DNA of 64,000 nt from Antedon mediterranea (taxonomy: Eukaryota > Echinodermata > Crinoidea > Comatulida > Antedonidae): NCBI RefSeq assembly GCF_964355755.1, contig NC_092673.1, forward strand, positions 1,369,001 to 1,433,000, given 5' to 3'. The notes beneath the pieces are model-generated. The model saw only the letters and a program-made list of their open reading frames with translations. It did not search any database and had not been told where the DNA came from. A program made the translations under genes and the position numbers. Below, in pieces: positions 16,593-60,715 of this stretch; within the stretch, counting starts at the first letter, position 1; every line of letters starts with the position of its first letter.

Positions 16593-17939
<1,347 letters not shown>

Positions 17940-23700: not shown

Positions 23701-26700
23701 CTGAACACCGTTGGGCTGGCCAAATATGGCTGGTTTTCCTGAAAGTCTGGTTTTTGGAATGTGTTTTTAATGGTAAAAAAAGATATTTGAGACCTTTTGG
23801 TAATCTGGTAATATTGGGTATTGGGAGAGTTTCTTGTTTATAGGGAGCCTGGTATTGGGAGAGTTTCTTGTTTATAGGGAGCCTGGTATTGGGAGAGTTT
23901 CTGACTGTATTATCTTCATCTACAGTTTTATATAAAACTGTAATGTCACTTAAGTTCTGTCTACACTATGTGATGTGCCTATATATGGAAATGATGATGT
24001 CATATCTCTACCATATTTGGGCATATCACCACCATGTATGGGCACATCACATTTTTTTGTCGAACTGATAGTATAGACAGAGCTTAAGATGTGCAAATCA
24101 AATCCAATGCTAATGCTTCTGTGTTAAATATAATTTTGTTTATGAAGAACAAAGAAAACACTAGAGTGACATGGGGTTAGCTTGTAATTTTCAAAATAAC
24201 CTAAGCTTAATTAGATGACGACATCCATTCCATAAGAAGGTTTGAATTTCTATTTTCTTAATTATCATGAATTAAGCAAAAAGATTGATAAATGTCAGCC
24301 ATGGTTTTTAGCAAGGTCTTATGATCAAGGCTTTAGCAATTTTATCTTTTACATCATCATCACTTAAGAGAATGATTTGTGTATGATAAATGCAAAATCA
24401 TATAAGCAAAGGTAAAATTGTGTAAAAGAACAAATTATATTAAAACAGTTTAAACCTCTCACTTTCATAGACCAATGTTGTACCTTGAATCTAATGCAGA
24501 CAAATTACACGATTAGAGGATTTAGTGGGACTTAACTTTGTAAAAATCAATTCCGATAAGTATGACATGTTAGGCTTATCTTCTCTTTTTACAATTTAAA
24601 CAGGCATTTAATTTAAAGAAAATTCTTAATTTATGTGGAAGCTTTAAAATCACTGAATTCAAAAGTTAAAATAAGGACACAAAGCATTACATACAGTTAT
24701 GAACACACAGCATTACATACAGTTATGAACACAAAGCATTACATACAGTTATGAACACAAAGCATTACATACAGTTATGAACACAAAGCATTACATACAG
24801 TTATGAACACACAGCATTACATACAGTTATGAACACAAAGCATTACATACAGTTATGAACACACAGCATTACATACAGTTATGAACACAAAGCATTACAT
24901 ACAGTTATGAACACAAAGCATTACATACAGTTATGAACACAAAGCATTACATACAGTCATGAACACTGAACACACAGCATTACATACAGTTATGAACACT
25001 GAACGCACAGTATTACATACAGTCATGAACACTGAACACACAGCATTACATACAGTTATGAACACTGAACGCACAGTATTACATACAGTCATGAACAATG
25101 AACACACAGCATTACATACAGTTATGAACACTGAACGCACAGTATTACATACAGTCATGAACAATGAACACACAGCATTACATACAGTTATGAACACTGA
25201 ACGCACAGTATTACATACAGTTATGAACACTGAACGCACAGTATTACATACAGTTATGAACAATGAACGCACAGTATTACATACAGTTATGAACACTGAA
25301 CGCACAGTATTACATACAGTCATGAACACAAAGCATTACATACAGTTATGAACAATGAACGCACAGTATTACATACAGTCATGAACAATGAACACACAGC
25401 ATTACAATACATACAGTTATGAACAATGAACACACAGCATTACAATACATACAGTTATGAACAATGAACGCACAGCATTACATACAGTTATGAACAATAA
25501 ACACACAGCATTACATACAGTTAGTTACACACACTGAACACACAGCATTTCACATACAGTTATGAACACTGAAACACACATTTCACATACATTACAGTTA
25601 GTATGCATACAAACACACATTTATGTAGACTGAACACAGCATTTAACTGTATGCACACGGCACATACAGTACAATATGTGCACTACATTTTGGAGTTTCA
25701 TTTAATGTATTTGACAAAGCCTTACACATTTGCTTTTTGTTGAACATAAAGGCATTTTGGTTGGCAGTTAAGCTAGTGACGAGTGGAACGATAGATGATT
25801 CCAAGTGCGAGCACGTCTTCGAAACACGTTGACCAGGCTGTAACGTAGCTGGCAAACACTTATCCGACAATGATGAACCCAATGCGTTACATAAACCTGT
25901 AAAATAAAAGTTTTTAACAAATTTAACAATCATTTTGTTATTTTCTGCTTGCCATTTCTTTCCGACTGATTTAGATCTCTCTTTTCTCATTTGAAATTCA
26001 ACCACTGTTATCCTTGCTGTTTTTTTTTCCTTCTTATAAATTGCCTTTGGATTTTATTTTGTCCACAAATTACAGACCCTGTCAAATGTTAATTCATATT
26101 ATTATTAAGAATTCTAATATGGCATTTTGATACCAACGCTAGAAGTTGATTGATACTGTAATAGGAAGGTTGTTACTTATGCACCGAACATTCTATTAAC
26201 TTACTAATTATATACCAAGTAACAAGATTACAAATGCTTTCTACGAATTAATGTTGTTTTTAATTAAGTTGAGTAGAAGGTCTTATTATTATTATATTAT
26301 ACTACCACTCAGCACAATTAAATTCTTGACTTTGTCAGAGGTTCTCCTCCGGAAGCTGGTTGTACCAACAAGATTTACTTGAATAAACCAGCATCCAACT
26401 GGTACTAAAAATGTTGAAAACATAAACACTTGTCTAATAGTAGGCTACAGTAAAGCCATTGAAAACATTAAAGATGTTTTGTCTTCAAAAACATAGAAAA
26501 TAAAGATGAATACTATGTAAAATGATGTACTGTAATCTTGCAGTTTTGACAAAATAAATGAATAAATAAATAAATTATAAAAAATAAACAGTTTCACAGG
26601 AGCAACAGGTTCAAAGAGCAATAATGCTATAGTTTTTATTAGATATCTTAAGCTCTATCTACACTATCAAACTAATTTGACCAAAAAGTGTCCAAATATG

Positions 26701-33717: not shown

Positions 33718-33723
33718 TTTAAT
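33718..33723 (-). terminator. ATTAAA polyadenylation signal of the GPI-peptide gene
   Basis: Minus-strand ATTAAA, a common variant hexamer, 44 bp after the stop codon at 33767-33769. Confidence 0.4.
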
Positions 33724-33766: not shown

Positions 33767-35373
33767 CTACAACTGGAGAGCAGATAATAAAGAAACTGCA
33801 AGTAAAGAGAAGCTGAACGTAACCAGACTACCAGATCCGGTTGGAGGATCCGTTCCCATGCTGGTATTGGATGTAGGCTCCGTTGTGGTATCCATACTCA
33901 TTGTTGTTGCCGCTGTCGCATCAATGGGACCTGACGTTTAACACTTTGACTGCCAGAGGTTTTTCCAGTTAGAAACTGCCACCGCCAGCGTTTTTAGCCC
34001 AATTCGATGTTTTTATTAAAGCTGATTGAAACCATGTATGTGATCTGATTTATATGTAATTTAGACTAAAATAATCATAAAGATTTTAGCTTTACAATGG
34101 TACCAAGAACGATTTTTAAATTGCAATATGTAAATCGTAATAGTAAAATGAAAGTAACCCACTTTTTGAATTTTTCGTAGTTTCGCGCAAGAAAGTCGAG
34201 ATAATCGCGATTTTGTGCAAGACATTACAATATGAAAATATCGCCCGGTGAGATCAACAAACAACGAAAAAGTTACTTACACGGCACTGATAGGCCTATA
34301 AAAACAAGTTATCACTATCGAAAAATGTATTACATTTTATGAATCATAAATCTTACATCAATGTTTCGCCAAAATCCACATAGTAAAGACACCAGGCCTA
34401 GTTAACCAGGCCTAAAGTTGGTCCGGAACCGTTTTACGACTAGGGCTAGGCTAGCCTAGTACTACTAGCCTAGGCCTAGGAGATAGTAAACTGATGATAA
34501 TAACCATACCATTTCAAAACAAGTTTGTTGCGTGAAACTCGGTCACTTTCAGTAAAACACCAAAACAATTAGGGTATACATACAATAATAAAATTAAAGA
34601 CTTCATATTGAAAATGACTCCATTATTTTTTATTCAGATAACAAACAAACATGTCAATCCACAAAAACCTTTGTAATGCTTCGGCGGCATAGCTAGCGCG
34701 CGACCGATACACAATGCGCCAAGCCATCGCTCTACGCGCTACTGTGATGCGCGGTGTTTGTTATTTCGACAGGTACCATTTTGACAGTCGTTCGTAACCA
34801 GATTAGTTACTTTCAAATTGTAAAATATTGACGGTCCAGACCGAATATAGTGTTCATATTTATAGTATATACCAATAATTAACCTATCTACCGGATTTCG
34901 TAAAAAAACGCGAAAAACGAAGATCTTCGTTTTTGGCAGTCAAGCGTTGTGTTTCCAAAAACGAAGATCTTCGTGTTTGGCAGTCAAAGTGTTAAAAAGA
35001 AAACAGCGAAAGATTACAATACAGCTAATTTACGTGCGATACATACACACATAGGCCTACATATGGGATCCTCCTCTTCAATTCTACGTCGTAGAACTGG
35101 AGTCGAGAACATATTCAGCACCAAATAGCCTACTAAGGTGTTCGTTAAGAATTGTCTTCGATTGTGTAATGGCTTTGGCTTGCCGGATTTCCATACTTAA
35201 AATACGAGAGATTTTAATCTACGGATGGATCACGATCATAGTACCGTCTTGTTGGTTGCTGGTCTTTTTCATTTACAATAGAATCCTTTGGGACACCCCA
35301 AGGCCATCCATCCCCTACCCTATTTTTAAATGCGCCTTGAGCACTCTGGAGTGGTATGTGCGCTATAAAAATC

Positions 35374-35434
<61 letters not shown>

Positions 35435-36106
35435 CAAGAGGATACTTTGGGACACCCCAAGGCCATCCATCCCCTACCCTATCAAGAAGATACTTTGGGA
35501 CACCCCAAGGCCATCCATCCCCTACCCTATCAAGAGGATACTTTCGTGTAAAACGAACAAGGACCCAGGAACACTAATATTTCACCAAATTTATGGAATA
35601 GCCCTTTGAGAGACACTTTCCCGTAAAACAAGGTTATAGATATTATTTAACAACCCTCCACCCCACCCCCATTCAGCAGCAGGGGGGACACGCGTTATAC
35701 TATTATTAGAGGGGATACGTTATTGGGTCCCGCGAAGGTGCCCCTCCCCCAATAGTTTTTTGTCTTCAGTAAACACAAAGTGAAAATGCAAAATTGTTCA
35801 CAATATAGTTAATTTTTAAAAAAGCAAAATACTCTGCAATTTTTAAATTATCTTAACTTATACAAATTATTTAGTTATATTTCGTTGGTTATTGGTTATT
35901 TGCAAGTACATTTTGATAAGCTTTTAATTAGCTAATTCTTAGCTATACCTCATCATTTGTCAATTTTCTATTTTTTTTTTATTTGACAGTTAAGAGAACA
36001 ATCAGATGGTATCAATCAAAGTGAATACAATACCTTGAAGCATGATTATCATCACGCTGAAAATGATAACAACGAGCGTAGTATGAAGAGCGTTCATCTT
36101 GAGCAT
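33767..36106 (-). CDS. candidate 78-residue GPI-anchored Thr/Ser-rich peptide, 2 exons
   Basis: Exon 1 (36034-36106) codes MLKMNALHTTLVVIIFSVMI plus a few residues, a clear signal peptide. Exon 2 (33767-33930) completes the split Gly codon. It then codes a short hydrophilic stretch rich in Thr and Ser, with one N-glycosylation sequon (NTS), two prolines before a small-residue GSGS segment, and a hydrophobic tail (LVTFSFSLLAVSLLSALQL) ending at TAG. That is the full layout of a GPI-anchored precursor. The processed peptide would be about 30 residues, a size and design like vertebrate CD52, though I see no sequence homology. An acceptor (TTTTTTGTCACAG) just before the Met suggests a 5' UTR exon further upstream. 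The 3' acceptor has almost no pyrimidine tract because a piggyBac-like element sits 8 nt away. The donor is weak (GTATTG). Function unknown. Confidence 0.5.
33942..34991. mobile_element. piggyBac-like nonautonomous element, TTAA target
   Basis: The ends CACTTTGACTGCCAGAGG and, as complement of the right end, CACTTTGACTGCCAAAC share a 14-bp perfect terminal repeat. TTAA flanks at 33938-33941 and 34992-34995. TTAA and a CNCTTTG(A/C)CTGCCA start are typical of piggyBac. The right part holds two copies of AACGAAGATCTTCGT next to TGGCAGTCAA. No transposase frame is present in its 1,050 bp. Confidence 0.85.
35280..35550. repeat. 46-bp tandem repeat interrupted by a SINE tail
   Basis: GGGACACCCCAAGGCCATCC followed by ATCCCCTACCCTAT occurs near 35290, 35449 and 35496, with a partial unit near 35530. 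The first copy is separated from the rest by a SINE-like tail and an ATT microsatellite. The open frame through it is only repeat peptide. Confidence 0.85.
35325..35434 (+). mobile_element. SINE 3' tail with (ATT)n
   Basis: GCGCCTTGAGCACTCTGGAG, then GTGCGCTATAAAAATCGT, then about 19 ATT units (35376-35434). This tail type is common in tRNA-derived SINEs of marine animals. The head is missing. Confidence 0.6.
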
Positions 36107-38208
36107 TGCAGAGCAAGACGATCTGTGACAAAAAAAGACATGAAAAATGAAGATTAATTAGTCAGACTTTGAATAGGTTATTTTTAATTTTAATAAAATT
36201 AATCACAAAAAACCCCGAAAATTTGAATATTTTTGGCTTTAAAATACAGTTGTTCAGGTAAGTAACTATTATGCGACATGGCATATTCAACAAAAAAATT
36301 GTTTTTTTCAGGAGGAATCTTTAACAAAATAAATAATTCAGTCCCATCACAGTTCAGTTTCAAATTTTTTTTTCTCCAAAAACTGACAAGCGGGAGGGAG
36401 AAGGCGCGCGGGCCACTCCCTATAAATTGCTAAAAATACAATGCAGACGATAGAAGATAATAATGTGTTGGCCCAGAAATAGGATATTCGTATCATTGAG
36501 CTATTATCGCCTTTACGTAATTTAGTAAATAACCGACAAAAATAAACAAAATATCGCAGCAAATATACCACTACAATAATGTAAACAAATAGTATTTTTA
36601 AACATTTAGTAAAAAGTAAAGTAACTAACAATAACAATTTACCTTTTTCAAATATAAGAAGATAGAAGATGTCTTATCTATTAGCAGTAAAGAACTGAAC
36701 TGGGTGTGCCTTATGTTGTAGTGAAAATTGATTACATGCTATGCTAATTTGAATAATAAAGACGAATATGAATACCACTTTTTTCTTTATCATTTAATAT
36801 TAACAATAGATATAGATTAGAATTCAGGAGAGTGAAAATCGAATTATATTGCATAGTATTTATTAATGCTCTTTGAATTTTCAGCATAATACTTAGCGTC
36901 GTATTTATTCAATTTATTGATTTTCTCTTTGTACTGGTTTTATTTATGTTTTTCATTTACATTGTCAAGTGCAGCGAGTTGCTATAGAAACGTACAATAT
37001 GCTAGAATGACTTTCTTAATCGAAATTATTTATATTCTATTATTATTCAGTCACTGAGTAGCGTCTTAATTTTTCCAGAAGGGAACCTCTTACCGAGTAA
37101 ATCTACGTTCACACTGAGCCCGGATTCAGGTCCGGTGGCCGGAGAAAAAATCTTGGAAAATGGGTTTAGTGTTAAAGAATAGAAGCGTTCACACCGGATT
37201 CGATCCGGTACACGGACTTGGAGAAACCTGTCAGTAGGCCTACAACAGGTCCAAAAGAGGATAAAGTGATACAAAATCGAATCTCGCGCTTAGAAAATAA
37301 TTTCATAATATTGTATTATAGAAATTATAATTAATAAATAAATCTATTCAAGAATAACAAGAAACTGGTTTTCCAGTCATTTTATTGGGAACTAGAGTTG
37401 TTATACACCAAAATGTGAGGGTCCAGTCGTAATGACCAACGAAAATAAATTTCGTTTCATTTCATTTGAAGGGGTTGCGCCGTACACCCCAAACAACATA
37501 CAGTACAATTAAAATTAACATAAATATTATAATAAAATAGATTCACTTAAATAAATTTGTAAACTTAAAGCCCAAAAAGTGTATCAAAAGAATGCTTGAA
37601 TTGTCTGGTTTGTTTGTTTGTTTCATTCGGTACTCAAGAAACACAACAAAAATACCAGGATAACCCCATAAAGCTGAAACAGCTTAATTCCAATGGGGTC
37701 CTTTAAACAAGCAAGTTAGATAATAATGTGTACATTATAAATGCATACTAATACAATAAACAGAAACATCCATATACAATATACTGGTAGTAAGCATTAA
37801 AATAGTTTTTATGTTGATATTCAAATTCTTCCTCATTACTTTCTTGCTGTACTCATTTCTTCTCTTTTTTTCTGCTGATGTTGCTTTCTGCAAATTATTC
37901 AATCAATCACTTAGTTCAGAAACTTAAATTTGCACATAAGTAAGAATAATAATATTGTTCTTTTTAAAATAAAGAGCAAACATCAGAAGTAGGACCTACT
38001 GTCTTTTGTAAGGAGATATTATTAGATCTTCGGATCCTTCATTACACAATGGCCATATTGCAAATTTAGGCTATTTTATACTATTTAAACTTCCCCACAC
38101 AAAACAAACCAACAAAAATCTGGTGTTCAATTTATAATATTTAAAGTAAGTTACTCTTAACCTGGTCTACACGTTCCTCATTGTCTTTGTTTCCATCTAT
38201 AACATCAG
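36107..38208. other. spacer between GPI-peptide gene and STAG
   Basis: A block at about 37080-37260 has CGTTCACACTGAGCCCGG and GCGTTCACACCGGATTCG, possibly another decayed inverted-repeat element. A hydrophobic minus-strand frame at 36347-36637 has no splice context or family resemblance. No gene supported. Confidence 0.45.
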
Positions 38209-53645: not shown

Positions 53646-56600
53646 TTATTTCGGTATCCTTCTAAGTTCGTGAGAAAACCACAAAGCAATTGTTAACAAA
53701 CTCAAAGATCCAAATTGATGAGACGCTGCCAGGCTAGTTGGTACATAGTACAGTAATGTACATATCCCTAATGTAACCTTAAGTATTAAAAGAAAAGAAA
53801 ATATGTATAAGTGAATCCAATTAGTACCTAGTACAGTAATGTACATATCCCTAATGTAACCTATTAAGTATAAAAGAAAACAAAAATATGTATATGCAAA
53901 ATCTATCCAATGCTAAATTATTGAAGTTGCCATGGAGAATGGCATATTTCATATATATTCATAATTTTCAAAAGATAACCGACCAAAATCACCGATCAAT
54001 AATAAAATAATAAACAAATGCCATAAATTCTCGGTTGGGGAACTTTTTTTACTCAGCTACTATTTTCATCTAAATTACCATTTTAAAAATGAATATTAAT
54101 TAGAGCTATATATTAAGATTGTTTTTGGTAAAATAAGTTTATGTGATGAAAACAGTAGATTGTGGTTAAGATGCTTGCTTATAAATTTCAGGTAAACTGA
54201 TTCCTGTCATTTGATTGGATGATTGTGGGTCACATGGCCGTATAATAGCATGTATTATATAACACCCAAATAGATTCCTGTTATTTGATTGGACAATCGC
54301 TGCACCTAGCACGGTGTATACTAATTTTTATTGGATGTTTTCAAATCTCTTATCAACATCTAGATTAACTAGTAGAAATGATAAGTTTATACATATCGGG
54401 AGAATCTTTTGGTTTATCCAAAATATCGGGAGAAATTGGATTTTAGTGGGACTATATAACTATATATTGGGTTCAATGTCTTTATTAATAATTGTGGTAA
54501 ATTATACTGACCTGTAATGCGACCATTCCCAGCATGCAGTTGGCCGCAAGGTTTGCTCGTTTTGGGAGAGGAATTCGACGTGTGAGCGCCCACAATGACA
54601 CAACAGCCAGTGCTGATGTAATTCCCTAAGATTAAACAAAAATACCAGCTTATATTAAAGGTTATAAAATATAGATTATGATTATATATACTAATATAAA
54701 AAAATTATTCCAATACACCGATTTTGTAATGCCATTCCTCACATTCTGTTTATTTAACACATTTGTTTTATACTTACCAACAACCTGTGGTCAAACTGCA
54801 CTGTAGTAGAGTTTTCAAAAAAGTTTTTCCACTTAGGGTCAAAGGTCAGGATATCTTGTGGTATCCACCTGTTGGCCATTTTAGGAAAAGAATTGTAAAC
54901 AAGTCCAGCATCTAAGCCTGCTACAAAAGCTCCTGCCAAAATAAATAAATCAATACCTTATTTATCAAAACTTGGGTGGGCAATTTATTCATTTCAAATG
55001 CACTTTTGTATATACCAAATAAGGCGACATAAGGTATATATCTTCCTTAATTCATTTCACAGGAAAGCATCCTCTGAATAGATGTGACCCAAAGGAGGGG
55101 TTACTGTAAACCGTATCTATGGCAATAAAAATCCTGCGTTTTATGTTAAATTTTGGTTATATTATTGACATTTTTTAGTTTTAATATGAAATATGCGGAG
55201 TATATTATTTAATATTTCTTGATATTCGAAAATACTCAGTTGATAATTTCATATAAGATTGTACCTGATAAAGCTGTAGCAAAAACAAGGCCCACTGTAC
55301 CATGTGCAAATCGTCGTACAACAGGCAGAAGCTTGCTTTCAGTAATCTGTATAAAAACAATATTTGAAAAATATTCAAGAAATTGGGAGAAAAGCAGTCT
55401 GAACTCGTGTTTAATCGCCGTTCAAAAAGTCAGTGACCATGGAGAGTCCCCATAGCTTTAAGCATTATGGGAAATTCCGGGCACTATGAGAAATTCTGGA
55501 CACTATGGACAATTTCGGGACACTATGGGCAATTCCAGGCACTAAGGACAATTCCGGACGCTATGGGAAATTATTGGTATTATGGAAAATTCCAGGCACG
55601 ACAACTGAAAACTACAATTACTTACTTGTATAGGTTTAAGAACATGAGATAAACCCTGCCAAAACATTAGAGCATAGAGAAGAAATGCTGATCCTAGATG
55701 TGAGGCTAGTCTGTATTGGCTTACACGAGGCATGTCTGTTTTTGCTGGTTCATCTAAACCACTCTTCACCATATACCAACCAAGAAGCCCCTTTAAAAGT
55801 TTAAAATACAAAACAAAAATCAGCTACAAAGAATAACAAATTAAATGTTGAAATGTTTTAATATTTTCACAAAAACTGATGAAGTCTAGCTGACGAAACT
55901 GTCCTGAAGCGCAAATTTACTGGTTTACTATCAATGAACTACATACCAATATGTTTTAATATTCATTTTTATTCAGCGTACTTTTGATTGAAGTTTTTAA
56001 AACACAGTAGAACCGCTCCTTTGGCACATCCAAATTGAAATGAACATGGGTACTTTTTTAAAAAATCCTCTATTAAGGGGACAGTCTTCATCTTTATCAT
56101 TATGAGTTCCCACAATCATCATGTTGATTATAACGGAACTAGTCGGTGTGGTTACAGTATTAACAGCTGGTTCTGCGTTGAAACCCCGGTTCTCGTCAGA
56201 TCACCGAAGTTAAGCAACGTTGGGCCTGGTTGCGTTCTGGATGGGAGACCGTCTAGAAATCGCGGCGGGTGCTGTATATACTGGAGAGTGATGGTGTAAT
56301 GGTAATATCGGACTAGCATGTGATAGGCATGGGTTCGAGGTTATCTGTACCATACTAATTGCATCCTTAGGCAAGGTGCTTTACTCTCATTGCCTCGTCC
56401 TTCGGATGGGATGTAAAGCCGTTGGTCCCGTGTACTTAACAGTGCACGTTAAAGAACTTGGTACACTATTCGAAAAGAGTAGGGGATCGTCTTCCGGTGT
56501 GCTGATCTGGTAGGCGCTGCACTGCTGGCTGCCGTGGGTCCGTGGAGGGCCTAATCCGAATTTCCTGAGTTTCCAGTTCAGCTTGAGGACAAATATGAAT

Positions 56601-59704: not shown

Positions 59705-60715
59705 ATAGCAATTTAGCACAGTGTTTTACTATAATTGAATAGCAATTTAGGTAAATGTCTTTTGAAATGAAATTAAATAAATTATAACCAATTTGATTAG
59801 AGTAAAACACAACGATAAAGAATAGGAAACATTTAATAACATGATAAATTACATTTACATAGCAATTTATCACTGTGTTTTACTATAACCAATTTGGTTA
59901 GAGTAAAACACAATGATAAAAAATAGGAAACATTTAATAATATGATAAATTACATTTACATAGCAATTTATCACTGTGTTTTACTATAACCAATTTGGTT
60001 AGAGTAAAACACAATGATAAAGAATAAGAAACATTTAATAACATGATAAATGACATTTACATAGCAATTTAGCACTGTGTTTTACTATAACCAATCAGAT
60101 TAGAGTAAAACACAATGATAAAGAATAGGAAACATTTAATAATATGATATATAACATTTACATAGCAATTTAGCACTGTGTTTTACTATAACCAATTTGA
60201 TTAGAGTAAAACTCAACGATAAAGAATAGGAAACATTTAATAACATGATAAATTACATTTACATAGCAATTTATCACTGTGTTTTACTATAACCAATTTG
60301 GTTAGAGTAAAACACAATGATAAAGAATAGGAAACATTTAATAATATGATAAATTACATTTACATAGCAATTTATCACTGTGTTTTACTATAACCAATTT
60401 GGTTAGAGTAAAACACAATGATAAAGAATAGGAATTTAATAATATGATATATAACATTTACATAGCAATTTAGCACTGTGTTTTACTATAACCAATTTGG
60501 TTATGGTAAAGCACAATGATAAAGAATAGGAAACATTTAAAAATATGATAAATGACATTCACATAGCAATTTAGCACTGTGTTTTACTATACCAATTTGA
60601 TTAGAGTAAAACACAATGATAAAGAATATGAAACATTTAATAATATGATAAATTGCTAGCACTGTGTTTTACTATACCAATTTAGTTTTGGATAAAGAAT
60701 ATGAATTTAAAGAAT
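59705..60715. repeat. 101-bp satellite array, ~9 units
   Basis: CATAGCAATTT recurs at 59858, 59959, 60060, 60161, 60262, 60363, 60461 and 60562, giving a 101-bp period with one 3-bp shortening. Each unit has the hairpin GTGTTTTACT...AGTAAAACAC around ATAACCAATTTGGTTAG. Units near the ends are diverged. Confidence 0.95.

Follow-up and report, generated by a model that had tools for sequence, protein, structure and literature searches.

A young transposable element lies at the splice acceptor of a candidate small gene on the minus strand of a 64-kb stretch of Antedon mediterranea DNA (the window, meaning the whole stretch that was analysed). Among the results of our analysis, this fresh insertion is the most tangible and the easiest to test; the gene itself is unproven, isolated and of known design. 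We put at roughly even the chance that the candidate is a real, lineage-restricted, single-copy small gene, lying between the gene for a cohesin subunit (STAG) and a 529-codon open reading frame (ORF). As sequence, the observation that drew attention to this place is confirmed, and its interpretation as a two-exon gene for a GPI-anchored glycopeptide is partly supported.

Proposed exons and reading frame

The first-pass annotation had claimed that two exons join in phase to give 78 residues, which was borne out by conceptual translation. Minus-strand segments 36106-36034 and 33930-33767 join into a 78-aa frame ending in TAG (MLKMNALHTTLVVIIFSVMIIMLQGPIDATAATTMSMDTTTEPTSNTSMGTDPPTGSGSLVTFSFSLLAVSLLSALQL), with GT at 36033-36032 and AG at 33932-33931 as the splice dinucleotides. 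The parts of the proposed gene are as follows.

36034..36106, minus strand: proposed first coding exon, signal-peptide-like (MLKMNALHTTLVVIIFSVMIIMLQ), phase 1 (translation)
33931..36033, minus strand: proposed intron, 2,103 bp, or 1,049 bp minus the transposable element and one TTAA
33767..33930, minus strand: proposed last coding exon, Thr/Ser-rich, with the sequon NTS, a GPI-like tail and the stop TAG (translation)
33718..33723, minus strand: ATTAAA, a variant poly(A) signal (read from the sequence)

The 78-aa product opens with a signal-peptide-like segment, continues with a Thr/Ser-rich middle that contains a single sequon (NTS), and ends in a GPI-like tail. In these three parts the design claimed for it fits; its first exon is insecure. 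The N terminus conforms to a simple rule for n-, h- and c-regions and for positions -3 and -1, and the Gly/Ser stretch (GSGS) before LVTFSFSLLAVSLLSALQL conforms to a simple GPI-tail rule. About 25 to 30 residues separate the likely cleavage site from the omega site, and Ser or Thr makes up 13 of the 27 residues of the middle part, a size and Ser/Thr content that fit the CD24 type. A variant poly(A) signal had been placed 44 bp past the stop, and ATTAAA is indeed found there, at 33723-33718; an AATAAA is also present downstream of it, at 33298-33293.

We then looked at base composition and codon use. In exon 2, the proposed sense frame is open over the whole exon and the other two are closed. 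We rejected the reading in which a neighbouring gene uses exon 2 as an internal coding exon, since those other sense frames are closed. The G+C content of exon 2 was 47.6%, which places it within the top 1.5% when set against noncoding windows; the figure for noncoding DNA nearby is 31%. Its synonymous codon use scored highest when read in the proposed sense frame, where it was like that of local genes. With G+C-matched genomic DNA as the reference, the codon score ranked in the top 2.7% when frames of any kind were counted and in the top 10% when only stop-free ones were. These statistics give weak support to exon 2 as coding sequence, and it is probably a real exon. Exon 1 is a plausible one; its codon statistics were uninformative and give it no backing. 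In addition, the donor of exon 1 (AAG|GTATTG) is weak, with a score of 0.3 (top 8% of GTs) on the generic metazoan consensus, not trained on Antedon mediterranea, that we used for all splice scores. Three features bear on this end of the gene.

36034..36122, minus strand: possible full extent of exon 1, with an acceptor-like AG ending at 36123 (score 6.3, top 0.3% of AGs)
36123..36324, minus strand: old, diverged member of a family of dispersed short terminal-repeat elements (consensus TTAAAGATGTATTGTCCCC...GGGGACAATACATCTTTAA), its 3' end decayed beside exon 1
36736..36793, minus strand: rival first exon, in phase with exon 2, MIKKKVVFIFVFIIQISIA, with the poor donor GCAT|GTAATC (first-exon enumeration)

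Because the acceptor-like site at 36123 is strong, exon 1 may be internal, with a 5'UTR exon farther upstream. That AG lies at the end of the old repeat copy, which belongs to a family with candidate copies in the hundreds across the genome (796 and 943 in an initial look); the aligned part of the copy, 36206-36134, was mostly 91 to 94% identical, about 92%. Of the two signal-peptide exons, one may be spurious, or both may serve as alternative first exons. We rejected a coding sequence that runs continuously from the rival exon through 36122-36034, as it meets a stop. With its weak donor and an in-phase rival upstream, the proposed first exon is not secure.

A young transposable element at the proposed splice acceptor

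The intron holds a transposable element on the exon 2 side, and the sequences next to it include the parts of a splice acceptor. The first-pass annotation had overlooked this element, as it had the repeat adjoining exon 1, the weakness of the donor and the rival first exon.

34992..35011, minus strand: polypyrimidine tract (TTTCGCTGTTTTCTTT) and left TTAA; the element is now between tract and acceptor (empty-site comparison)
33942..34991, minus strand: young non-autonomous piggyBac-type element in the intron, 1,050 bp, ends CACTTTGACTGCCA and TGGCAGTCAAAGTG, TTAA on both sides
33931..33941, minus strand: right TTAA target-site copy and acceptor ACGTCAG (acceptor scoring)

The element sits 11 nt upstream of exon 2, and its end is the reverse complement of its start (CACTTTGACTGCCA). 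It is very young, since it is identical over 1050 of 1050 bases to another genomic copy (L012). Forty long copies were scored, this one and 39 further full or long ones, and they were 96 to 100% identical; a TTAA target-site duplication flanks the window copy and 10 of the 11 other copies checked. The longest stop-free stretch is 71 codons, so the element is without a transposase and non-autonomous. It resembles non-autonomous elements of the piggyBac type, a superfamily assigned here from the TTAA and the ends alone, in its TTAA target-site copies, short inverted ends and many near-identical copies.

We rebuilt the empty site by removing the element and one TTAA, which gave TTTCGCTGTTTTCTTTTTAAACGTCAG|GTCCC at the junction (with longer flanks, ATCTTTCGCTGTTTTCTTTTTAAACGTCAG|GTCCC). 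The acceptor score at the proposed junction was -2.14 in the present sequence (top 29% of AGs) versus 4.95 in the empty site (top 0.85%). Among the 621 TTAA sites in the window that are closely trailed by an AG, three reach 4.95, and this site is one of those three. Because the empty site restores a strong acceptor exactly at the junction, and so few TTAA sites match it, the insertion appears to have struck a genuine acceptor. The rebuilt site thus supports the proposed junction. Of the claimed join 36034^33930, the acceptor side is backed in this way; the donor side is left with a weak score and a rival in-phase exon at 36793-36736.

In the assembled allele, the polypyrimidine tract is now more than 1 kb from the AG, and this points to damaged or altered splicing on the assembled haplotype. 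With its acceptor lacking the tract, the assembled allele may not make the 78-aa protein. An alternative in-frame AG before 33912 scores -0.41 and would drop six residues, and the AGs inside the element (the best scoring 3.0, at 34469) would yield truncated peptides without a GPI tail.

Chance expectation, relatives and rival readings

To judge how often such a design arises by chance, we combined a signal-peptide rule (positive n-region, 12-residue hydrophobic core, small residues at -3 and -1), a GPI-tail rule (hydrophobic, uncharged end with small residues before it), a hydrophilic-middle rule and lenient splice-site cut-offs. When both strands of the window were scanned, this pair of exons was the sole locus that passed. 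The mean in simulated third-order Markov windows (n = 400) was 0.08 loci per 64 kb and fell to 0.005 once an acceptor score like that of the empty site was required; these chance figures are optimistic, as the search rules were composed after the candidate was known. One weak case passed in 150 kb of random genomic DNA. In random genomic DNA, a GPI-like tail was encoded in the exon behind 3 of 784 reasonable acceptors, and an exon that had both such a tail and at least 25% Ser/Thr stood behind 1 of 784, one with at least 35% behind none of the 784; the figure for this exon is 42%. A phase-compatible signal-peptide exon occurs upstream by chance in 3 to 5% of 2.4-kb segments. Scaled genome-wide, the lenient rule leads one to expect some hundreds of chance loci. 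The two-exon design thus exceeds what chance would easily yield, yet it is unproven.

We also searched for relatives. Protein and DNA searches of the 354-Mb genome found no second copy of either exon, and the 78-aa protein had no relevant match in Pfam, NCBIfam or PDB sequences, nor was there a relevant match in Rfam. The CD52 profile PF15116 gave no match to the 78-aa protein at E<=10 and none in the genome, and the CD24 profile PF14984 matched neither the protein nor the genome, both being short models and hence weak tests. A literature search for comparable invertebrate proteins found none.

All near neighbours of the candidate are on the minus strand too, and the candidate occupies the gap between two of them. 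Upstream lies the cohesin subunit SA (STAG) gene, whose exons match human SA-1/SA-2 (best E 2.8e-69). These exons occupy the stretch between about 46.8 kb and about 38.5 kb; beyond it, candidates for the last exons lie near 37.7 kb, and an AATAAA occurs near 37.39 kb. Downstream, the 529-codon ORF (31894-30305, minus strand) has no Pfam match; its start codon is directly past a stop, and a possible acceptor is just upstream. Elsewhere in the window are a single-exon 448-codon ORF on the plus strand (16593-17939) that matches RBBP4/CAF1 subunit C and is possibly an intronless (retroposed) copy, a plus-strand 5S rRNA match (56159-56280, 49.4 bits, over the Rfam gathering score), and tandem arrays of a 101-bp unit (x 8.7) and of 26- to 99-bp units with a ACAGCATTACATACAGTTATGA core, at 59783-60654 and 24677-25600.

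Among the other readings, the one that we hold most seriously, while still tentatively, is that of a former gene that has turned into a pseudogene or a segregating loss-of-function allele, in which the young element took the acceptor's polypyrimidine tract; as a statement about the allele, it overlaps our preferred one. The drop in acceptor score from 4.95 to -2.14 speaks for it, as does the very recent arrival of an element identical to another copy over its 1050 bases, but the frame is intact, insertions in introns can be tolerated, and the in-frame AG at 33912 scores somewhat better than the present acceptor. It is rather unlikely that there is no gene at all and that AT-rich intergenic DNA produced the entire construct by chance. 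The empty site is independent evidence for an acceptor, and the G+C, codon bias and Thr/Ser content of exon 2 also argue against chance; on the other hand, the searches made found no relatives, the donor is weak, and about 0.08 such constructs are expected per 64 kb, where a first-pass reader scans for many kinds of pattern.

It is unlikely, and a little more so than chance, that exon 2 is a real GPI-tail exon whose signal peptide is supplied by a different first exon, such as 36793-36736 (MIKKKVVFIFVFIIQISIA|C) or a more distant one, exon 1 being a chance hydrophobic frame beside a repeat. Although 36793-36736 is in phase and has a textbook n-h-c layout, and although the proposed exon 1 has a weak donor, no codon backing and an old repeat copy adjoining it, the rival donor GCAT|GTAATC scores even lower (-0.56) and a Cys would fall at the junction; moreover, the strong acceptor-like site just upstream of the proposed exon 1 is what a short-5'UTR exon would have. 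Far less probable is that a same-strand neighbour, either STAG upstream or the 529-codon ORF downstream, uses these exons as untranslated or alternative end exons. The shared strand would allow this, and the ORF, starting just past a possible acceptor, may have 5'UTR exons upstream; however, the coding exons of STAG reach about 38.5 kb, the gene may end near 37.7 kb, an AATAAA lies near 37.39 kb, and two of the three sense frames of exon 2 are closed.

Predicted product and known glycan carriers

If the candidate is a real gene, its last exon (33930-33767) would encode about 25 to 30 residues rich in Thr and Ser, with a single site for an N-glycan, and a tail for GPI attachment; the signal peptide would come from upstream, probably from exon 36106-36034. 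After entry into the ER and removal of both its ends, the product would be N- and O-glycosylated and GPI-anchored, and would act at the cell surface as a minimal carrier of glycans, as CD24 or CD52 present glycans on a GPI anchor. The frame, the element, the youth of the element and the loss of the tract are shown by the sequence, whereas transcription, splicing, anchor, glycans and function are all what we infer from it. In the assembled haplotype, the very recent TTAA-specific element has split the acceptor from its polypyrimidine tract, and this allele is probably spliced poorly or via an alternative AG, either the in-frame one at 33912 or cryptic ones in the element, the latter leading to truncated secreted peptides.

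The CD24 precursor has about 80 residues, namely a signal peptide, a Ser/Thr-rich mature part of about 30 residues and a GPI anchor, and human CD24 carries two sequons. The candidate would be like CD24 (heat-stable antigen, PF14984) in its precursor of about 80 residues, putative signal peptide, Ser/Thr-rich mature part and putative GPI anchor, and differs in having one sequon rather than the two of human CD24, in belonging to an invertebrate genome and in being without a sequence match. Plant arabinogalactan peptides also have a signal peptide, a very short glycosylated core and a GPI tail; the likeness is in layout, as their cores are Hyp/Pro-Ala-rich with O-arabinogalactans, whereas the core of the candidate is Thr-rich with an N-glycan site. 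CD24 is heavily glycosylated and GPI-anchored (PMC9990587), and the mature part of human CD52 is a 12-residue glycopeptide (PMC11982460). With CD52 (CAMPATH-1, PF15116), the candidate would have the three-part design in common, but where the mature glycopeptide of CD52 has about 12 residues and one N-glycan, that of the candidate would have about 25 to 30 residues, about twice as many, and one NTS, and it is without a family-model match. Of the CD52-like design first proposed, the three-part layout fits, while the size is nearer to CD24 (about 30) than to CD52 (12), so that CD24 is the closer design match in size. The candidate is probably not a CD52 homolog; the first-pass annotation had itself disclaimed such homology. 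By the tests made, it is not a member of either the CD24 or the CD52 family.

The fullest reading, in which a lineage-specific invertebrate gene reached the CD24/CD52 design independently and a very young transposon allele disables its acceptor as a natural knock-out, is an unlikely one in our judgement. For annotation, deleting a young insertion in silico can expose a splice acceptor that is invisible when a single genome is annotated. If the gene is real, it would be an unannotated invertebrate example of the smallest cell-surface glycan carriers, a class often overlooked by gene finders, and would suggest that this carrier design arises repeatedly without homology.
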